Below, piece by piece: positions 23,429 to 31,239 of a DNA stretch of 56,652 nt; positions within the stretch are counted from its first letter, which is position 1; every line of letters begins with the position of its first letter. The position numbers and the translations under genes were made by a program. This stretch comes from Phycisphaerae bacterium. GTDB lineage: Bacteria > Planctomycetota > Phycisphaerae > Phycisphaerales > SM1A02. Under the pieces are notes generated by a model. It made no database searches. It was not told where the DNA came from and worked only from the letters and a program-made list of their open reading frames with translations. The DNA lies in NCBI GenBank assembly GCA_018701395.1, contig JABIWU010000095.1, positions 1 to 56,652 of the forward strand, given 5' to 3'.

Positions 23429-24988
23429 CTATACTTCGGACAGGGGCATGTCGGTCACGACACGATTTGTGTTTTTTGGCAACTCGACTTCTAGCATGCC
23501 AGCTATACCAGCATCAGCCATTCTTCGACGAACAGTCGCTGGGTTAAACGTTGTTGATAAACAATCATCGACAAGCGCTTGCAGGTTCATTGCGTATTGA
23601 CCTTCTGGAAGAGATTCGCCAATTGGTTGAATTGCCTGTTCAAACAATTGAAGTTTGTTCTGGAAGTTTTCAAACGTTCCTGACTTTTCTGCCCAAGTTG
23701 CCGCTGGCAAAAACACATCGGCTCGCTCGATTAAGGCATTAGCCAACGTATCAATAAGAATTAGCGTTTGATTTTCTGTAATTTCTGGTGTATCCCATGC
23801 TTCTGGATAATTCCCAGTAATAACAACCGTGTCTGCATTGCCAACCTGTTTTTTCCATGCGTCATAGTCCAGAGCATCTCCAAGTGCACGTTGAACACCG
23901 CGTGCGTTTGGTGCTTTTTCGCTTCGCATAGTAAAGCCGCTTTTGAACGTTTTATCTTCACCGACAATTGGCACTGGCCCAATGCCAATGATTGCGTTGC
24001 TGTCAAGCCCTCTAACTAAATTGCCAAGTAACCAAGCGTCTTCGCAACTTAACATCGGACTTACTAAAAGTGCAACACTTTTGGCTTGTTGCAACATGTC
24101 TGCTGCGACTATCTCTGCATCGTCGTTTATCTCTGTTATACGACTTTCGTCGTGTACAAATTTCCAACCATAACGTACTTCGTCAGTGATCCAATATTGA
24201 TTTATTTCGAGGTTTGTTCTTGGTTTAACACGATATATTGCGTTGTCATTCTGTTCGATAATGATGTTGTCGCCACTGCTTGTCAGTGGATCTATCGATG
24301 GAGTTGTTTTCAAAAACCAAACTCGTTGCTGAAACATGAAATCCTTATCAAGCATCGCGCCAACAGGGCAAATGTCAATCACGTTTCCGCTTAGTTCGTT
24401 GTTAATTCCGATTCCTGGGAATACGTCAATGTATTCTTTTGCGCCACGGCCATCAATAAATAATTCTGATGTTCCTGAAATTTCATCAGCAAACCGAACG
24501 CAACGTGTGCACATTATGCAACGGTCGCCGTACAGCATGATCTTGTCGCCAATGTCTTTTTTACTTTGTGTAATTTTTTCTGTATCGCAACGTCTTTTTC
24601 CACGCCCATATTCATACGCATAATCTTGAAGATCGCACTCGCCAGCCTGATCGCAAGTTGGACAGTCAATTGGATGATGATTGAGTAACATTTCCATCAC
24701 GGCTTTTTGATTGGCTGTTGCTTTTGGCGAAGTTGTATAAACAACGTTACCATCGCCTGCTGGCGTTTGGCAAGTCGGAAGCAGTTTTGGAATAGGTTCA
24801 AGTTTGTTGTCGTTGCGTGGGTTAGGCGCCCAAACTTCAGCAAGGCAAATACGGCAATTTGCAACGACGCTCAATGATGGGTGATAACAATAGTGTGGAA
24901 TTTTGATTCCGTTATCGTGTGCAACATCGAGAATCAACTGACCTGGTTCAAAATCTAACTTTTTTCCATCAATCGTAATCGTAGGCAT
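23429..24988 (-). CDS. nuoG: NADH-quinone oxidoreductase subunit G (short form)
   Basis: NuoG is the iron-sulfur-rich subunit of the complex I NADH module. The N-terminal [2Fe-2S] domain has CYHPSLSVVANCRIC, the His-ligated cluster has HHPIDCPTCDQAGECDLQ, and the 4Fe-4S pair has CIMCTRCV and DICPVGAM. The molybdopterin-like C-terminal region is short, giving 519 aa against the 700-900 aa common elsewhere. The gene lies about 8.7 kb from nuoDEF on the same strand. TACAAT (25003-24998) is 9 nt before the ATG, and no Shine-Dalgarno is visible. Confidence 0.93.
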   Translation of the reverse strand: MPTITIDGKKLDFEPGQLILDVAHDNGIKIPHYCYHPSLSVVANCRICLAEVWAPNPRNDNKLEPIPKLLPTCQTPAGDGNVVYTTSPKATANQKAVMEMLLNHHPIDCPTCDQAGECDLQDYAYEYGRGKRRCDTEKITQSKKDIGDKIMLYGDRCIMCTRCVRFADEISGTSELFIDGRGAKEYIDVFPGIGINNELSGNVIDICPVGAMLDKDFMFQQRVWFLKTTPSIDPLTSSGDNIIIEQNDNAIYRVKPRTNLEINQYWITDEVRYGWKFVHDESRITEINDDAEIVAADMLQQAKSVALLVSPMLSCEDAWLLGNLVRGLDSNAIIGIGPVPIVGEDKTFKSGFTMRSEKAPNARGVQRALGDALDYDAWKKQVGNADTVVITGNYPEAWDTPEITENQTLILIDTLANALIERADVFLPAATWAEKSGTFENFQNKLQLFEQAIQPIGESLPEGQYAMNLQALVDDCLSTTFNPATVRRRMADAGIAGMLEVELPKNTNRVVTDMPLSEV

Positions 24989-25042: not shown

Positions 25043-25675
25043 TTAACGTTGCGGGAGTAGAGTCTTGCAAGTTAGAATCAGTGAGCCCTCTTCATATTCT
25101 ATGGAGATAATTTCTACTTCTCGGTCATCCATAAGCGGGACGAATGGTTCAATGCCCGTCGCCTTGAGTTGCATTTCTTCGGCAATACTCTTGAATAGTA
25201 CTACCGGAATTGGTACTTTCCCAATTCGAATAGCAACGGGTTCAACCTCTACGCTGCCCTTTTCAACTGTAATCCAAAGTTGAATCGCAATCGGTCGCAC
25301 ATCTGCGCCATCTATTTCGACCATCGCAGCAAACCAAATTCCATCTTGGGCCACATGGACTTGGGGGTTGTTAATCTCTGGGGGAAGTTCCATTTCTTGA
25401 TCGTGTGTTAGCCACCCTTCAAGGCGACCCGATAGCCAAGCATTCATTGCTTCATCCGAAATCCGCAATCGCCACGTATCAGTTTCGGGTCTTATTTTAT
25501 GAAATTCTTCATTCAGTCGATATTCCGCTCGGTCTGCAAGTGTTTTAATCTTGTCAAGCGAATAATTTGGCGGGACGTACCAACCTTGTGGTTGCATACT
25601 TAACCAGGCGAGAATAGCGAGCATTCCCACAAGGAAGAGTGTTCCGCTAGCTAAAATGATGAGTAGTTTTTTCAC
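25043..25675 (-). CDS. Membrane-anchored protein of unknown function
   Basis: This 210-aa protein starts at a GTG and has one N-terminal membrane anchor (LLIILASGTLFLVGMLAIL); the rest should face the periplasm. A helical part containing DEAMNAWLSGRLEGWL is followed by beta-rich sequence. The layout recalls YpmS-like single-anchor proteins, but I cannot assign it firmly. It begins 12 nt after the MFS transporter stop and is probably translated from the same mRNA. Confidence 0.65.
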   Translation of the reverse strand: MKKLLIILASGTLFLVGMLAILAWLSMQPQGWYVPPNYSLDKIKTLADRAEYRLNEEFHKIRPETDTWRLRISDEAMNAWLSGRLEGWLTHDQEMELPPEINNPQVHVAQDGIWFAAMVEIDGADVRPIAIQLWITVEKGSVEVEPVAIRIGKVPIPVVLFKSIAEEMQLKATGIEPFVPLMDDREVEIISIEYEEGSLILTCKTLLPQR

Positions 25676-25687
25676 GACTTAAGAATC

Positions 25688-26890
25688 TTATCGTTTTGCC
25701 ATGTTTCGCAGTGCATATAACAACAAGCAATTTAAGACGATAAAAGAAACTCCCGCAATTGGAAACATGCGAGAAAGCATTAGATCCGCTGGTAAGGTAA
25801 TTGTGTAAATAAGCAAGCCGCCACCTAATACGCCAATTGTGTACCCCGCCTGACCGGCAGTTTGCAAGGAACTAAAAACCAAGTTGGATGCATCTTGGCG
25901 AACAGAAACTGAAAACGCAGAGGGCATGAGGCCCGAGGCGCCAACGCCGTACATTAATAAACTTGGTAACAGAATTATTTCGGGGGGTAGCCATGCCATT
26001 AACCCCAGCCCAGCAAGCGAAACTCCGCACATAATGGAGGACACAAGCCGTACCCTGCCACCGCCATATCTGTCTGCAAGTATGCCGACAGGTGCTGAAA
26101 ATGCCGCTAACGACAAAAACATACCCACCAACGCAACCGCAAGGGTTACTTTTGGAATATTAAAGCCAGAAGCCAACAAAATCGGCAAAGAAGTAGATAC
26201 AAGCGCTGCTAATCCACGATCCAGAGCATAAAAGCCAGCGCCGACCCATTCGCGAGGAATAAGCGGGCAATGACGCGCTACCGGAAAAGGAGAGGGTGGA
26301 GTTGTGTCAACAACTTGGCGAACGTTCACTGCAATGAGCGTAAGTACAACCATAATACCCGCCCCAGCCCACAGAACTGCCTCCGCAGATTCTTTACCAA
26401 TTGCACCACCTGTTCCAACGCCTATAGCGAGCGAAACCATCATTGCGGTAAAACCGCCACCTATCCTGCCCGCATATCTATCTTGATTGCCCGCACCGGC
26501 AATTAGTCGAAACGGGATTGATAGAAGCAGTATGTCGGCACCCCCTTCAAGGCATCTAATTGCCAAAAACAGCCCCCATGAGTCCGCAACAGCCATACTA
26601 GCCATAAGAATCGCAGAAATAATTGCAGCAGAAATGAAAAGTGTCGACGAAGAAAACCGCCTTTTAAGGAGAGCTAACACGCCAATTGCAAGCAAAGCGC
26701 CAAGAAGGTTAACAGCCATGAAATAATGCGCGACGCCCTCAGAAACGCCAAATCTGTCAACGGTTAAATCGTGTAACACAGGCACAACCATTGCATCTGG
26801 GATTGCAGCAAGCCCCAACAGCAAACACCCGACAACTAGCGGGTGTTTGCTTCGATTGTGCTTCGTTTGTACGTTAATTGTCGCGAACAT
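25688..26890 (-). CDS. Major facilitator superfamily transporter
   Basis: This 400-aa protein has about twelve hydrophobic segments. The loop motifs LADRYGGGRVRLVS (MFS loop 8-9 type) and LLKRRFSSSTLFI, and the internal symmetry, fit MFS efflux or uptake carriers. The substrate cannot be inferred. It starts 3 nt after the stop of the M3-FKBP fusion gene and is followed 12 nt later by the anchored protein, so the three form an operon. Confidence 0.82.
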   Translation of the reverse strand: MFATINVQTKHNRSKHPLVVGCLLLGLAAIPDAMVVPVLHDLTVDRFGVSEGVAHYFMAVNLLGALLAIGVLALLKRRFSSSTLFISAAIISAILMASMAVADSWGLFLAIRCLEGGADILLLSIPFRLIAGAGNQDRYAGRIGGGFTAMMVSLAIGVGTGGAIGKESAEAVLWAGAGIMVVLTLIAVNVRQVVDTTPPSPFPVARHCPLIPREWVGAGFYALDRGLAALVSTSLPILLASGFNIPKVTLAVALVGMFLSLAAFSAPVGILADRYGGGRVRLVSSIMCGVSLAGLGLMAWLPPEIILLPSLLMYGVGASGLMPSAFSVSVRQDASNLVFSSLQTAGQAGYTIGVLGGGLLIYTITLPADLMLSRMFPIAGVSFIVLNCLLLYALRNMAKR

Positions 26891-26893
26891 GCA

Positions 26894-29689
26894 TCATTTT
26901 GTGGAGATAAGTTCAACATCGAAAATGAGGGTAGCACCACCTGGGATAACACCGCCAGCGCCTGCTGCGCCATAACCAAGGTCTGCTGGAATGATAAGTT
27001 TGCGCTTTCCTCCTACTTTCATCGAGCCAACTCCTTCTGTCCACCCAGCGATAACGCCGTTTAAAGGAAATTCGATTGTTTCTTCGCGGTCAACGCTGGA
27101 ATCGAATTTTGTTCCATCTGTCAACCAACCTGTGTAGTGCACTTCAACCGTACTCGATGCACTTTCTGGCATTGCGCCATTGCCTTCTACAATGTCGTAC
27201 CACTGTAATCCACTATCGCTTGTTGAAATTTCGCCTGTTACTGTATCGCCTGGTAATTGTTCCATTGGGGGTACCTTTGCATAGTCAATGATGTCGAGTA
27301 ATTCGACATCGAAAATAAGAATTGAGTCCGCGGGAATACTTGGTCTTCCTCGCGAACCATACGCTAAATTTGCTGGAATTCTGAATTTGCATTTTTCGCC
27401 GACCTTCATATTGGCTACGCCTTCAGTCCAACCGCGAATAACTCTATTTAATGGGAATGAAGAAGGCTGACCGCGATCAACGCTTGAATCGAATTTCGTG
27501 CCATCTTCAAGCCAGCCGGTGTAATGTACTTTGACCATGCTAGTCGGGGTTGGAGAGTCGCCACCAACATCTCCCTCGTTAATTACCCACCATTCCAAAC
27601 CACTATCAGATTGTTCTGGGTTTCCCTCAACTTCATCGCCGGGCAAAGATGTAGAGCTACCATCAACTTCTAATCCAAGTGATTCTAAAAATGCATCCAT
27701 AGATGGTTCTCTGCCAAGATAATCGCGGACTAAATCAAGACTATCCTGGGTGCCACCTTTTGATAAAATTTTATCTCGATAGTAAGCGCCCGCATCTGGA
27801 TTGAGCATGCCGAGTTCTTGGAAACGCTGGAACATATCCTGAGCATAGACAAGCGACCATAAATATCCGTAATATCCGGCTTGATACCCAGTCAAATGCC
27901 CGAAGCTGCTTTGAAAATGCGTCCCAGGAGTATGCGGGTACATGCGTGTCATATCGTGCACGTCATACGCAACCTGTGTTGTATCGACAACGCCATCTTG
28001 GTCTGTGTGATACGCCTGATCGACCATGCCCAAGAAAATTTGGCCTTCGGTTTTTATGCCGCTTTGTAAATTCTTAGCCGCAATCATGCCATTGATAAGT
28101 TCATCTGGCATTGGTTCATTTGTTTCGTAATGACGGGCAAAAAGTTTTAATGTGTCTGGTGTCCAGACCCACTCTTCGAACATTTGCGACGGTGCTTCAA
28201 CAAAGTCGCGCTCAACACTTGTACCTGCAAAACCAGCAATTTCTGCTTCACTCAAAATAGTGTGTAAACAATGTCCAAACTCGTGGAAAAATGTTTCCGC
28301 TTCGCCGTGCGTCATAAGCGATGGCTTGTCAGCAGTTGGTTTTGTAAAGTTGCAAACAAGCGCTGCTACTGGAAGTTGGACAGTTCCGTCTTCCCAAACC
28401 TTATGTTGCACTAATCCCCACTGCGCCGCGTGCGAGTATTTATTGTCTCTTGGGTGCAAGTCAATATAGAACTCGCCAAGTTGTTTGCCTGAGTTTGTGT
28501 CCCAAACCTCAAACAAACGAACATCATCGTGCCAAAGTGGGGTTCCCCTTTCTTCTGCAATCATCGTAACTTCGCGATACTCAATACCGTACAACAACTG
28601 TGTTATTTCAAACAAGCCGTCCATAACATTTTGTAGTGGTAAGTACTCTTGCACCTTTTGTGAATCAACTGCGTACTTTTCGTTCTTAATTTTTTCATAG
28701 TAATAACTAAAGTCATAAGGGAAAAATTCTGCAGTCGGGTCATTCAAATCTTTGCGTTTAGCTTCTACTAATTCCGCCCAATCTTTTTCTGCCTTTTTAC
28801 GAACAACTGGGCGTAATTTGTTGTAAAAATCTGCAACCGTTGCTGCATTTTTGGACATTTTTAATTCTGTTTCATAGTCTGCCGATGTTGCATACCCAAG
28901 AAGGTCTGATGCTTCGTCGCGCAGTTTTATGATGCGCTCGAGCAGTACTACGTTTTCTTGTCCAGCCCGTTTTGAATAGGCAAACCGAACTTTTCTGCGA
29001 GTTTCTGAAACGGAACAGTAATCAAGGACAGGACCGAAGGTTGGATAATCCAGTGTGACTTGATAGTTACCATCTACTACATCTAATCCGTCGATTATAT
29101 CTTGCGGAACGCCAGTAAGTTCGCCAACCGGAATCGGTACAACCGTTTTGTCTTCTCGTATATTTGTGTCAAACTCAATCGTTAACGTACCGAGTTCTTT
29201 TTGAATTGTTTTTAACTTTTCACGGTCTTCTGAAGAGAGCGACATTCCACTTCGGCGATAGTCGCGCATGGTATGTTCAAGCATACGTGCTTGCTCGCCG
29301 GTTAATTCTGGGTTTGTATCCGCGTATGCTTTAACCGCGTTAAATAATTCAACATTTGTTCCAAAGTCGATAGACCAGTCAGACCAAAGTTGTTCTGCGC
29401 CTTGTGCTGCTTCACGAATGTTTGCATCGGAATGCACGTATGCCATAAACGCCATCATGTTTGCGGCGCCATCGAGGCGAACCATCATGTCGTCCAGTGC
29501 GCCGATAGTGTTGTTAAACGTTCGCTGTCCCTTTGGAACTGCAATGATTTCTGCAATTTCAACATCGGCATTTGCAAATGCTAATTCAACTCGTGCTGTA
29601 AGTTCTGTGGGCGTTTCTGGAATGGTGCGATCAGCAAACAGGGTTGCTGTTGTTACCAAAACTGTACTTAAAATTATTTGCCTGAACAT
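26894..29689 (-). CDS. M3 metallopeptidase fused to two FKBP-type prolyl isomerase domains
   Basis: This 931-aa protein begins with a signal peptide (about residues 1-20), so it is probably exported. Residues ~25-690 form an M3 oligopeptidase of the oligopeptidase A/Dcp type, with the zinc motif [10 protein letters not shown] (H469, E470, H473). Two FKBP domains follow. The first is at about 715-805 ([37 protein letters not shown]) and the second at about 843-931 ([28 protein letters not shown]). Isomerisation of X-Pro bonds near a peptidase could help it cut Pro-rich peptides. GGAG lies 7 nt before the ATG at 29689; a TTG at 29692 is the alternative. MFS and anchored-protein genes follow closely. 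Confidence 0.9.
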
Positions 29690-29731: not shown

Positions 29732-29757
29732 AGGGCCCACACCATTGTGTGGGCCCT
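29732..29757. terminator. Hairpin terminator downstream of atpD
   Basis: AGGGCCCACAC, a 4-nt loop, then the perfect complement GTGTGGGCCCT: an 11-bp GC-rich stem, U-rich on the minus strand only weakly. It lies 22 nt beyond the atpD stop. Confidence 0.75.

Positions 29758-29778: not shown

Positions 29779-31239
<1,461 letters not shown>

Follow-up and report, generated by a model that had tools for sequence, protein, structure and literature searches.

M3 oligopeptidases are usually viewed as lone peptide scavengers and FKBPs as general folding helpers; one of the latter, FkpA, has an N-terminal dimerisation part. The gene discussed here joins the two kinds of protein in one reading frame. 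It lies in a window of 56,652 nucleotides (the whole stretch of DNA that was analysed), a contig of a Phycisphaerae bacterium assembly, and encodes an M3 metallopeptidase followed by two FKBP domains. On the peptidase side, the closest solved structures among the matches listed are those of the M3A enzymes thimet oligopeptidase and neurolysin. The fusion shares sequence with them (E 4e-147 to 1s4b), has the whole fold of its M3 part in common with neurolysin (5lv0) and carries the same HEFGH motif and downstream Glu and Tyr motifs. It differs from them in its export-like start and in the pair of FKBP domains at its C-terminus; of the 60 matches listed, the M3 chains measure 667–721 residues and align with the M3 part of the fusion only.

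On the isomerase side, FKBPs of the FkpA/Mip kind share with the fusion the FKBP domain sequence (1q6u), the full pocket and a probable envelope location. In the fusion, however, the FKBP domains are attached to a peptidase, and the dimerisation part of FkpA is missing. Dual-family prolyl isomerases (CFBP, cyclophilin-linker-FKBP) are chimaeras with an FKBP behind a linker and in this respect resemble the fusion, the partner here being a metallopeptidase instead of a cyclophilin (PMC6316441). The bacterial hosts given in a review of such chimaeras are Flavobacteria, spirochetes and proteobacteria, and its main text does not contain "planctomyc" (PMC6316441). The original prediction held that no protein with this domain order had been described; in agreement with it, no account of the architecture or of the gene pair discussed below was found among the papers listed in searches of an open-licence library.

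The fusion gene and its locus

The features of the fusion gene are as follows.

26894–29689, minus strand: M3–FKBP–FKBP fusion gene with an export-like start (open frame, Pfam, 13 of 13 genus genomes)
29633–29689, minus strand: signal-peptide-like N-terminus, residues 1–19 (by eye; relatives have similar hydrophobic leaders)
27674–29026, minus strand: Peptidase_M3 catalytic part, residues 222–672 (Pfam, predicted structure)
28271–28285, minus strand: HEFGH zinc-binding motif, residues 469–473 (aligned to thimet oligopeptidase)
27587–27661, minus strand: linker between M3 and the first FKBP, residues 677–701 (weakly conserved)
27296–27556, minus strand: FKBP domain 1, residues 712–798 (pocket intact)
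26906–27160, minus strand: FKBP domain 2 (pocket intact)

Read on the minus strand, which the original prediction did not mention, the frame extends from an ATG at 29689, preceded by GGAG, to a TGA at 26894 and encodes 931 amino acids with no internal stop. Pfam matches Peptidase_M3 at residues 222–672 (E 1.1e-130, 437.5 bits against a curated cut-off of 27) and FKBP_C in two stretches (E 6e-62, 206.4 bits against 21.1). These are the sole Pfam families matched at E 0.001, and a cyclophilin domain was not found at that threshold. All 13 genomes of the genus that were examined, the source included, have exactly two FKBP_C matches, both in one open frame. In G008, G009, G010 and G011 the end of a contig leaves the gene partial on one contig or divides it between two. 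The predicted combination of an M3 peptidase and two complete FKBP domains in a single frame is thus borne out. That a frameshift or a wrong assembly join produced the fusion is scarcely conceivable, and this explanation was rejected: it is contradicted by the recurrence in 13 of 13 genomes, the named records being MAGs titled Phycisphaerae, Phycisphaerales or Planctomycetota bacterium with isolate names from several projects.

The M3A signature is present as an HExxH motif (HEFGH) with a downstream Glu region from residue 493, and a Tyr-rich loop follows from residue 598. An AlphaFold2 model, computed in its first run from 58 aligned sequences out of 111 possible, has a mean pLDDT of 92.4, falling below 50 at residues 677–679 in the linker, and a pTM of 0.73, a value that says nothing firm on contacts between the domains. 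Residues 16–675 of the model, i.e., the M3 part alone, superimpose on human neurolysin (5lv0) with Z 47.1 and an rmsd of 1.6 Å over 652 residues; the proposed structure prediction therefore returned the neurolysin fold for this part. The fusion carries a complete neurolysin-type M3 peptidase, with predicted zinc-dependent cleavage of short peptides. In both FKBP domains, 10 of the 10 pocket positions checked are kept (positions chosen and numbered after FKBP12). The rotamase-site residues, whose loss would have spoken against the prediction, are therefore present, and both domains are predicted isomerases. From its N-terminus the protein is probably exported.

The FKBP part also scores above the curated cut-offs of two NCBI models, BamJ (NF053689; 166.3 against 100) and PRK11570 (NF008602; 221.2 against 198 bits). 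The BamJ label was set aside: the best stretch covers model positions 84–184 of 184, which is the FKBP part, and the score sums two domains.

Across the genus, the median dN/dS is 0.034 for the M3 catalytic part, 0.117 for FKBP1, 0.085 for FKBP2 and 0.281 for the first linker, rough ratios taken from unsaturated-dS pairs only (27, 54, 62 and 41 of 78, respectively). As judged from these values, purifying selection acts on the M3 catalytic part and on both FKBP domains. The weakly conserved linker also fits with loose, uncoupled domains. At E 0.001 no other FKBP_C was found in the source assembly (1.94 Mb, 97.7% complete), and in none of the 13 genomes was an FKBP found beyond the two fused domains. 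Cyclophilin matches number two or three per genome in all 13, the three of the source genome being other cyclophilin kinds with no FKBP part; parvulin matches occur in 6 of the 13, the source genome not among them.

The neighbouring features are the following.

29779–31224, minus strand: atpD, upstream syntenic marker (TIGR01039; cluster c2 in 19 loci)
29732–29757, strand not assigned: GC-rich terminator-like hairpin in the atpD/fusion gap (hairpin scan)
25688–26890, minus strand: MFS transporter gene directly downstream of the fusion (Pfam MFS_1)
25043–25675, minus strand: small protein, by eye with a single membrane segment near its N-terminus (frame list)
23429–24988, minus strand: NADH-quinone oxidoreductase subunit G-like (nuoG-like) gene (syntenic marker, cluster c5 in 15 loci)

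The MFS frame begins 3 bases past the fusion stop, and the next frame, which encodes the small anchored protein, begins 12 bases past the MFS stop (mechanical starts of the frame list). These gaps support an operon-like run, as had been suggested for the fusion, the MFS carrier and the anchored protein. Nine genus loci were tried, and in all 8 that could be read the atpD/fusion gap holds a strong hairpin with differing stem letters, followed by a stretch common to the genus loci, TATACACTA, and then by an AGGA motif ahead of the start. Because the hairpin recurs in all eight, the fusion probably begins its own transcription unit, and we infer that this unit probably includes the MFS and anchored-protein genes. 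Terminator-like sites are not enriched in the region (5 versus 5.6 in shuffles), and the promoter scan gave 4 sites against 8.1 in shuffles, with no promoter-like site in the atpD/fusion gap. Two further observations concern the surroundings. The atpD gene is separate from the ATP synthase epsilon gene, which sits on another contig (G000:C93:21415-21786), and a second, distant M3 family member is found at the start of the source contig (window 382–1536; open frame of 600 aa; 155 bits).

The FKBP–M3 gene pair in related genomes

The family survey covered 181 genomes. M3 was matched at E ≤ 1e-80 in 53 of them, 13 from the fusion genus and 40 from other genera. From the 40, two distant M3s (G160 and G145; 31% identity, no FKBP adjoining) were dropped, and G076 and G079 were not scored, their contigs stopping short of the upstream gene. 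The score of G137 relies on a second contig bearing the M3 N-terminus (L118) and that of G100 on about 500 to 640 upstream bases; G067 and G123 are below the M3 threshold, and G067 is outside the counts. Of the 36 scorable genomes, 25 (10 of 17 genera) have a same-strand FKBP gene upstream of M3, and the two frames overlap or are at most 90 bases apart in 23 of these 25, the other distances being 158 (G159) and 605 bases (G097). The pair is also found in G038, a member of another family. Pfam confirmed FKBP_C in the 10 of the 25 M3-side proteins that were scanned (L104, L091, L113, L050, L052, L053, L054, L063, L087 and L095), as well as in G038 (L051) and G067 (L086), the confirmed set including proteins without a pocket; the remaining 15 rest on BLAST with the FKBP part of the window and on a custom profile.

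The separate M3-side FKBP proteins have one to three FKBP domains and are often lipoprotein-like, with a lipobox seen by eye in 7 of the 15 inspected; both partners show export-like N-termini, again by eye. The order atpD, FKBP, M3, small anchored protein and nuoG-like gene is complete in g52 and g58, and partial versions occur in g51, g53, g4 and g9. In the fusion genus there is no FKBP gene between atpD and the M3 gene, the gap in eight loci being 66 to 102 bases and leaving no room for one, and two FKBP domains are found on the M3 C-terminus. The MFS gene (cluster c6) is present at 12 of the loci compared, all within the fusion genus. The small anchored protein matched nothing in Pfam or NCBIfam at E 0.001; its cluster (c3) is present at 18 of the M3 loci that were compared, and it is possibly a third member of the cassette.

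The pairing is not universal. Eleven of the 36 family genomes, from 7 of the 17 genera, have no upstream FKBP gene beside M3, and the 10 genomes with this M3 type that were checked in families f2 and f4 all lack an FKBP in the stretch read; hence, this M3 can work without pairing. On the M3 tree, the linked state (adjacent or fused) needs five changes, which indicates that pairing was gained or lost several times.

Origins and distribution of the fused forms

A second fusion is found in G020, a genome of another genus, in which a two-FKBP gene is followed by an M3 gene fused to one FKBP (Pfam-confirmed). In the M3 tree (66 rows with an M3 stretch of at least 450 residues), the fusion genus groups with g8, g51, g52 and g53 (SH-aLRT 85), all 17 rows of which have an upstream FKBP, and G020 falls in a different group. 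Placing all fused M3s in one clade is rejected (p-AU 0.0295), and the fused state has to be reached by two changes on the tree. The test used a quick LG+G4 tree with a long G020 branch and a group named post hoc, so its result is fair and not final. The G020 fusion thus probably arose separately from that of the genus, giving two origins. Since FKBP is upstream when separate and C-terminal when fused, losing a stop codon would not by itself have produced the fusion. G067, a single contig 79% complete, has a two-FKBP gene and an N-terminal piece of M3 at 1.82 Mb and, at 1.56 Mb, a C-terminal piece of M3 fused to FKBP; the two stretches that were read do not contain the middle part of M3. This looks like a broken arrangement of the G020 type.

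The proposed domain search over planctomycete genomes placed the fusion, among the matches listed, in this genus and in G020. Among the matches listed for the phylum (294 genomes, source included), no M3 outside the genus extends past query residue 707; among those listed for the order (221 genomes), only the fusion genus and G020 do so. In the family (181 genomes, E 1e-80), for which the match list is complete, only these two carry the fusion.

Exported-looking cyclophilin-FKBP (Cyp-FKBP) proteins were noticed in g5, g8, g51, g52 and g53 (L066, L141–L150, L152 and L153; e.g., L141:3233-4456). L149 has two FKBP domains, and Pfam confirms L141 only, the other cyclophilin parts having been assigned by eye, as was the Cyp label in the domain trees.

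FKBP domain 2 of the fusion is nearest to the FKBP domain of the Cyp-FKBP proteins that sister genera encode, a placement with weak support (93/82 with G019; 92/57 in the larger domain tree, from which two long-branch domains of G109 and G033 were left out). The smaller tree, with 7 of the 13 genus genomes, leaves the placement of domain 2 beside Cyp-FKBP without resolution. One clade of all fused FKBP domains is not rejected (p-AU 0.318 in the larger tree and 0.156 in the smaller), and neither is domain 2 with Cyp-FKBP (p-AU 0.22; smaller tree without the g5 row). It is tempting to speculate that the fused domains may have taken over the Cyp-FKBP role in the fusion genus.

These data bear on a reading in which two exported enzymes made together were joined in a small genome with no working link between them, the FKBP domains doing general envelope folding. 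It can be argued from the 1.94-Mb genome in which the fused FKBPs are the sole ones found, from the Cyp-FKBP proteins of the sister genera, which have no FKBP-bearing counterpart among the FKBP matches of the fusion genus, and from the weakly conserved first linker. However, pairing is found in 10 other genera and in genomes of up to 5.2 Mb, fusion probably happened twice, and partners without a pocket (see below) are retained beside M3. We therefore regard such loose accretion as rather unlikely.

Pocket residues, PepSY domains and the role of the pairing

Every one of the 26 fused FKBP domains in the genus retains all ten pocket residues, as does the fused domain of G020. In contrast, 28 of 28 M3-side FKBP domains from the 17 loci of g51, g52 and g53 retain 0–2 of the 10, a scoring that rests on the alignment of domains about 30% identical. 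Pfam continues to detect the fold in the three of these proteins that were scanned (L104, L091 and L113), and an alignment of the pocketless M3-side FKBPs gives a middling model (pLDDT 71.6) that nevertheless matches FKBP structures. Elsewhere the state of the pocket varies. One of the two G109 domains in the sister genus g8 keeps 8 of the 10 residues, two of the three M3-side domains in g58 keep 9 or 10, and several two- and three-domain FKBP proteins combine one intact with one degenerate domain. As a separate observation, several of the pocketless FKBPs encoded beside M3 in g51–g53 (L104, L091, L113 and others) show a lipobox by eye.

That g51–g53 lost the pocket and kept the fold speaks for a pairing built on binding or docking rather than on the isomerisation of proline. 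As far as the aligned pocket residues tell, isomerase activity is not what holds the FKBP–M3 pair together everywhere. The original prediction took proline to be a limit for M3 enzymes and, on this premise, proposed that tethered isomerases could feed them Pro-containing peptides, i.e., that FKBPs speed the cis/trans flipping of X-Pro bonds so that M3 accepts or cuts such peptides. The premise is weak. A review counts neurolysin among the enzymes that cleave after proline, its cut in neurotensin falling between Pro and Tyr, and gives it a table entry of 68/128 (53%) (PMC9147577). As for the feeding itself, it is possible in the fusion genus, where 26 of 26 pockets are intact (as is that of the G020 fused domain), and the intact genus pockets together with the g8 domain at 8 of 10 would also fit a reading in which isomerase activity is primary. 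Feeding cannot be the general reason for pairing, since the pocket is gone from the M3-side FKBPs in g51, g52 and g53. With the listing of neurolysin as a post-proline cleaver also against it, we consider isomerase feeding improbable as an explanation of the fusion.

A different role is suggested by PepSY, a domain of peptidase propeptides and inhibitors. Against a Pfam cut-off of 24, N-terminal PepSY domains score 27.7 (G038), 24.4 (G015) and 35.5 bits (G035) in M3-side FKBPs, and an FKBP protein of G067 scores 24.7. These hits would suit an FKBP part that regulates or inhibits the peptidase, or serves as its private folding chaperone, and does not handle substrate. However, no PepSY match was found in any of the 13 fusion-genus genomes, the PepSY-FKBP proteins occurring in the other half of the family, and none is among the Pfam matches of the M3-side FKBPs in G032, G103, G133, G070 and G099. 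The scores of G020, G031 and G091 are below the cut-off. Moreover, 11 of the 36 M3 genes have no adjoining FKBP, and G127 has a PepSY-FKBP-like protein (23.4 bits, below the cut-off) with no M3 of the fusion type found there. A regulatory or chaperone role for the FKBP part thus seems very doubtful. By locus, the PepSY-FKBP proteins beside M3 or an M3 piece are L051, L054, L063 and L086 over the cut-off and L050, L052 and L087 below it.

The occurrence of FKBP beside M3 in relatives and its probable fusion to M3 at least twice make this look like a Rosetta-stone case. The reading that we favour, with confidence evenly balanced, is that the fusion is the fused form of an older exported FKBP–M3 partnership that works by docking or substrate capture. 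The ancestral partners would have been an exported FKBP and an exported neurolysin-type M3 oligopeptidase from neighbouring genes. In the envelope space, the FKBP domains would bind peptides or unfolded proteins at flexible stretches, proline-containing or hydrophobic ones, and the bound stretches would be held near, or handed to, the narrow M3 channel that cuts short peptides. One molecule might thereby aid folding and clear failures. Docking would be the core role and isomerase activity an extra, kept in the fusion genus because the fused domains are its only FKBPs. Both substrate capture and the fold-or-clear role are inferred from the pattern of genes and domains.

In a broader and more tentative reading, one we hold at somewhat below even confidence, this planctomycete family may have an undescribed two-part FKBP–M3 envelope system in which the FKBP acts as an isomerase-independent peptide receptor or regulator, with pocketless variants, PepSY-FKBP variants and at least two fused variants. 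A conserved FKBP–M3 pair, probably fused twice and with pocketless members in some genera, offers a natural test of whether catalysis or binding underlies FKBP action, and the fused and split forms, like the intact and pocketless ones, allow direct comparison at the bench. One further FKBP protein came to light in the search: L154:2385-4850 is an 821-aa frame with one FKBP domain and, by eye, a long ankyrin-repeat-like tail.
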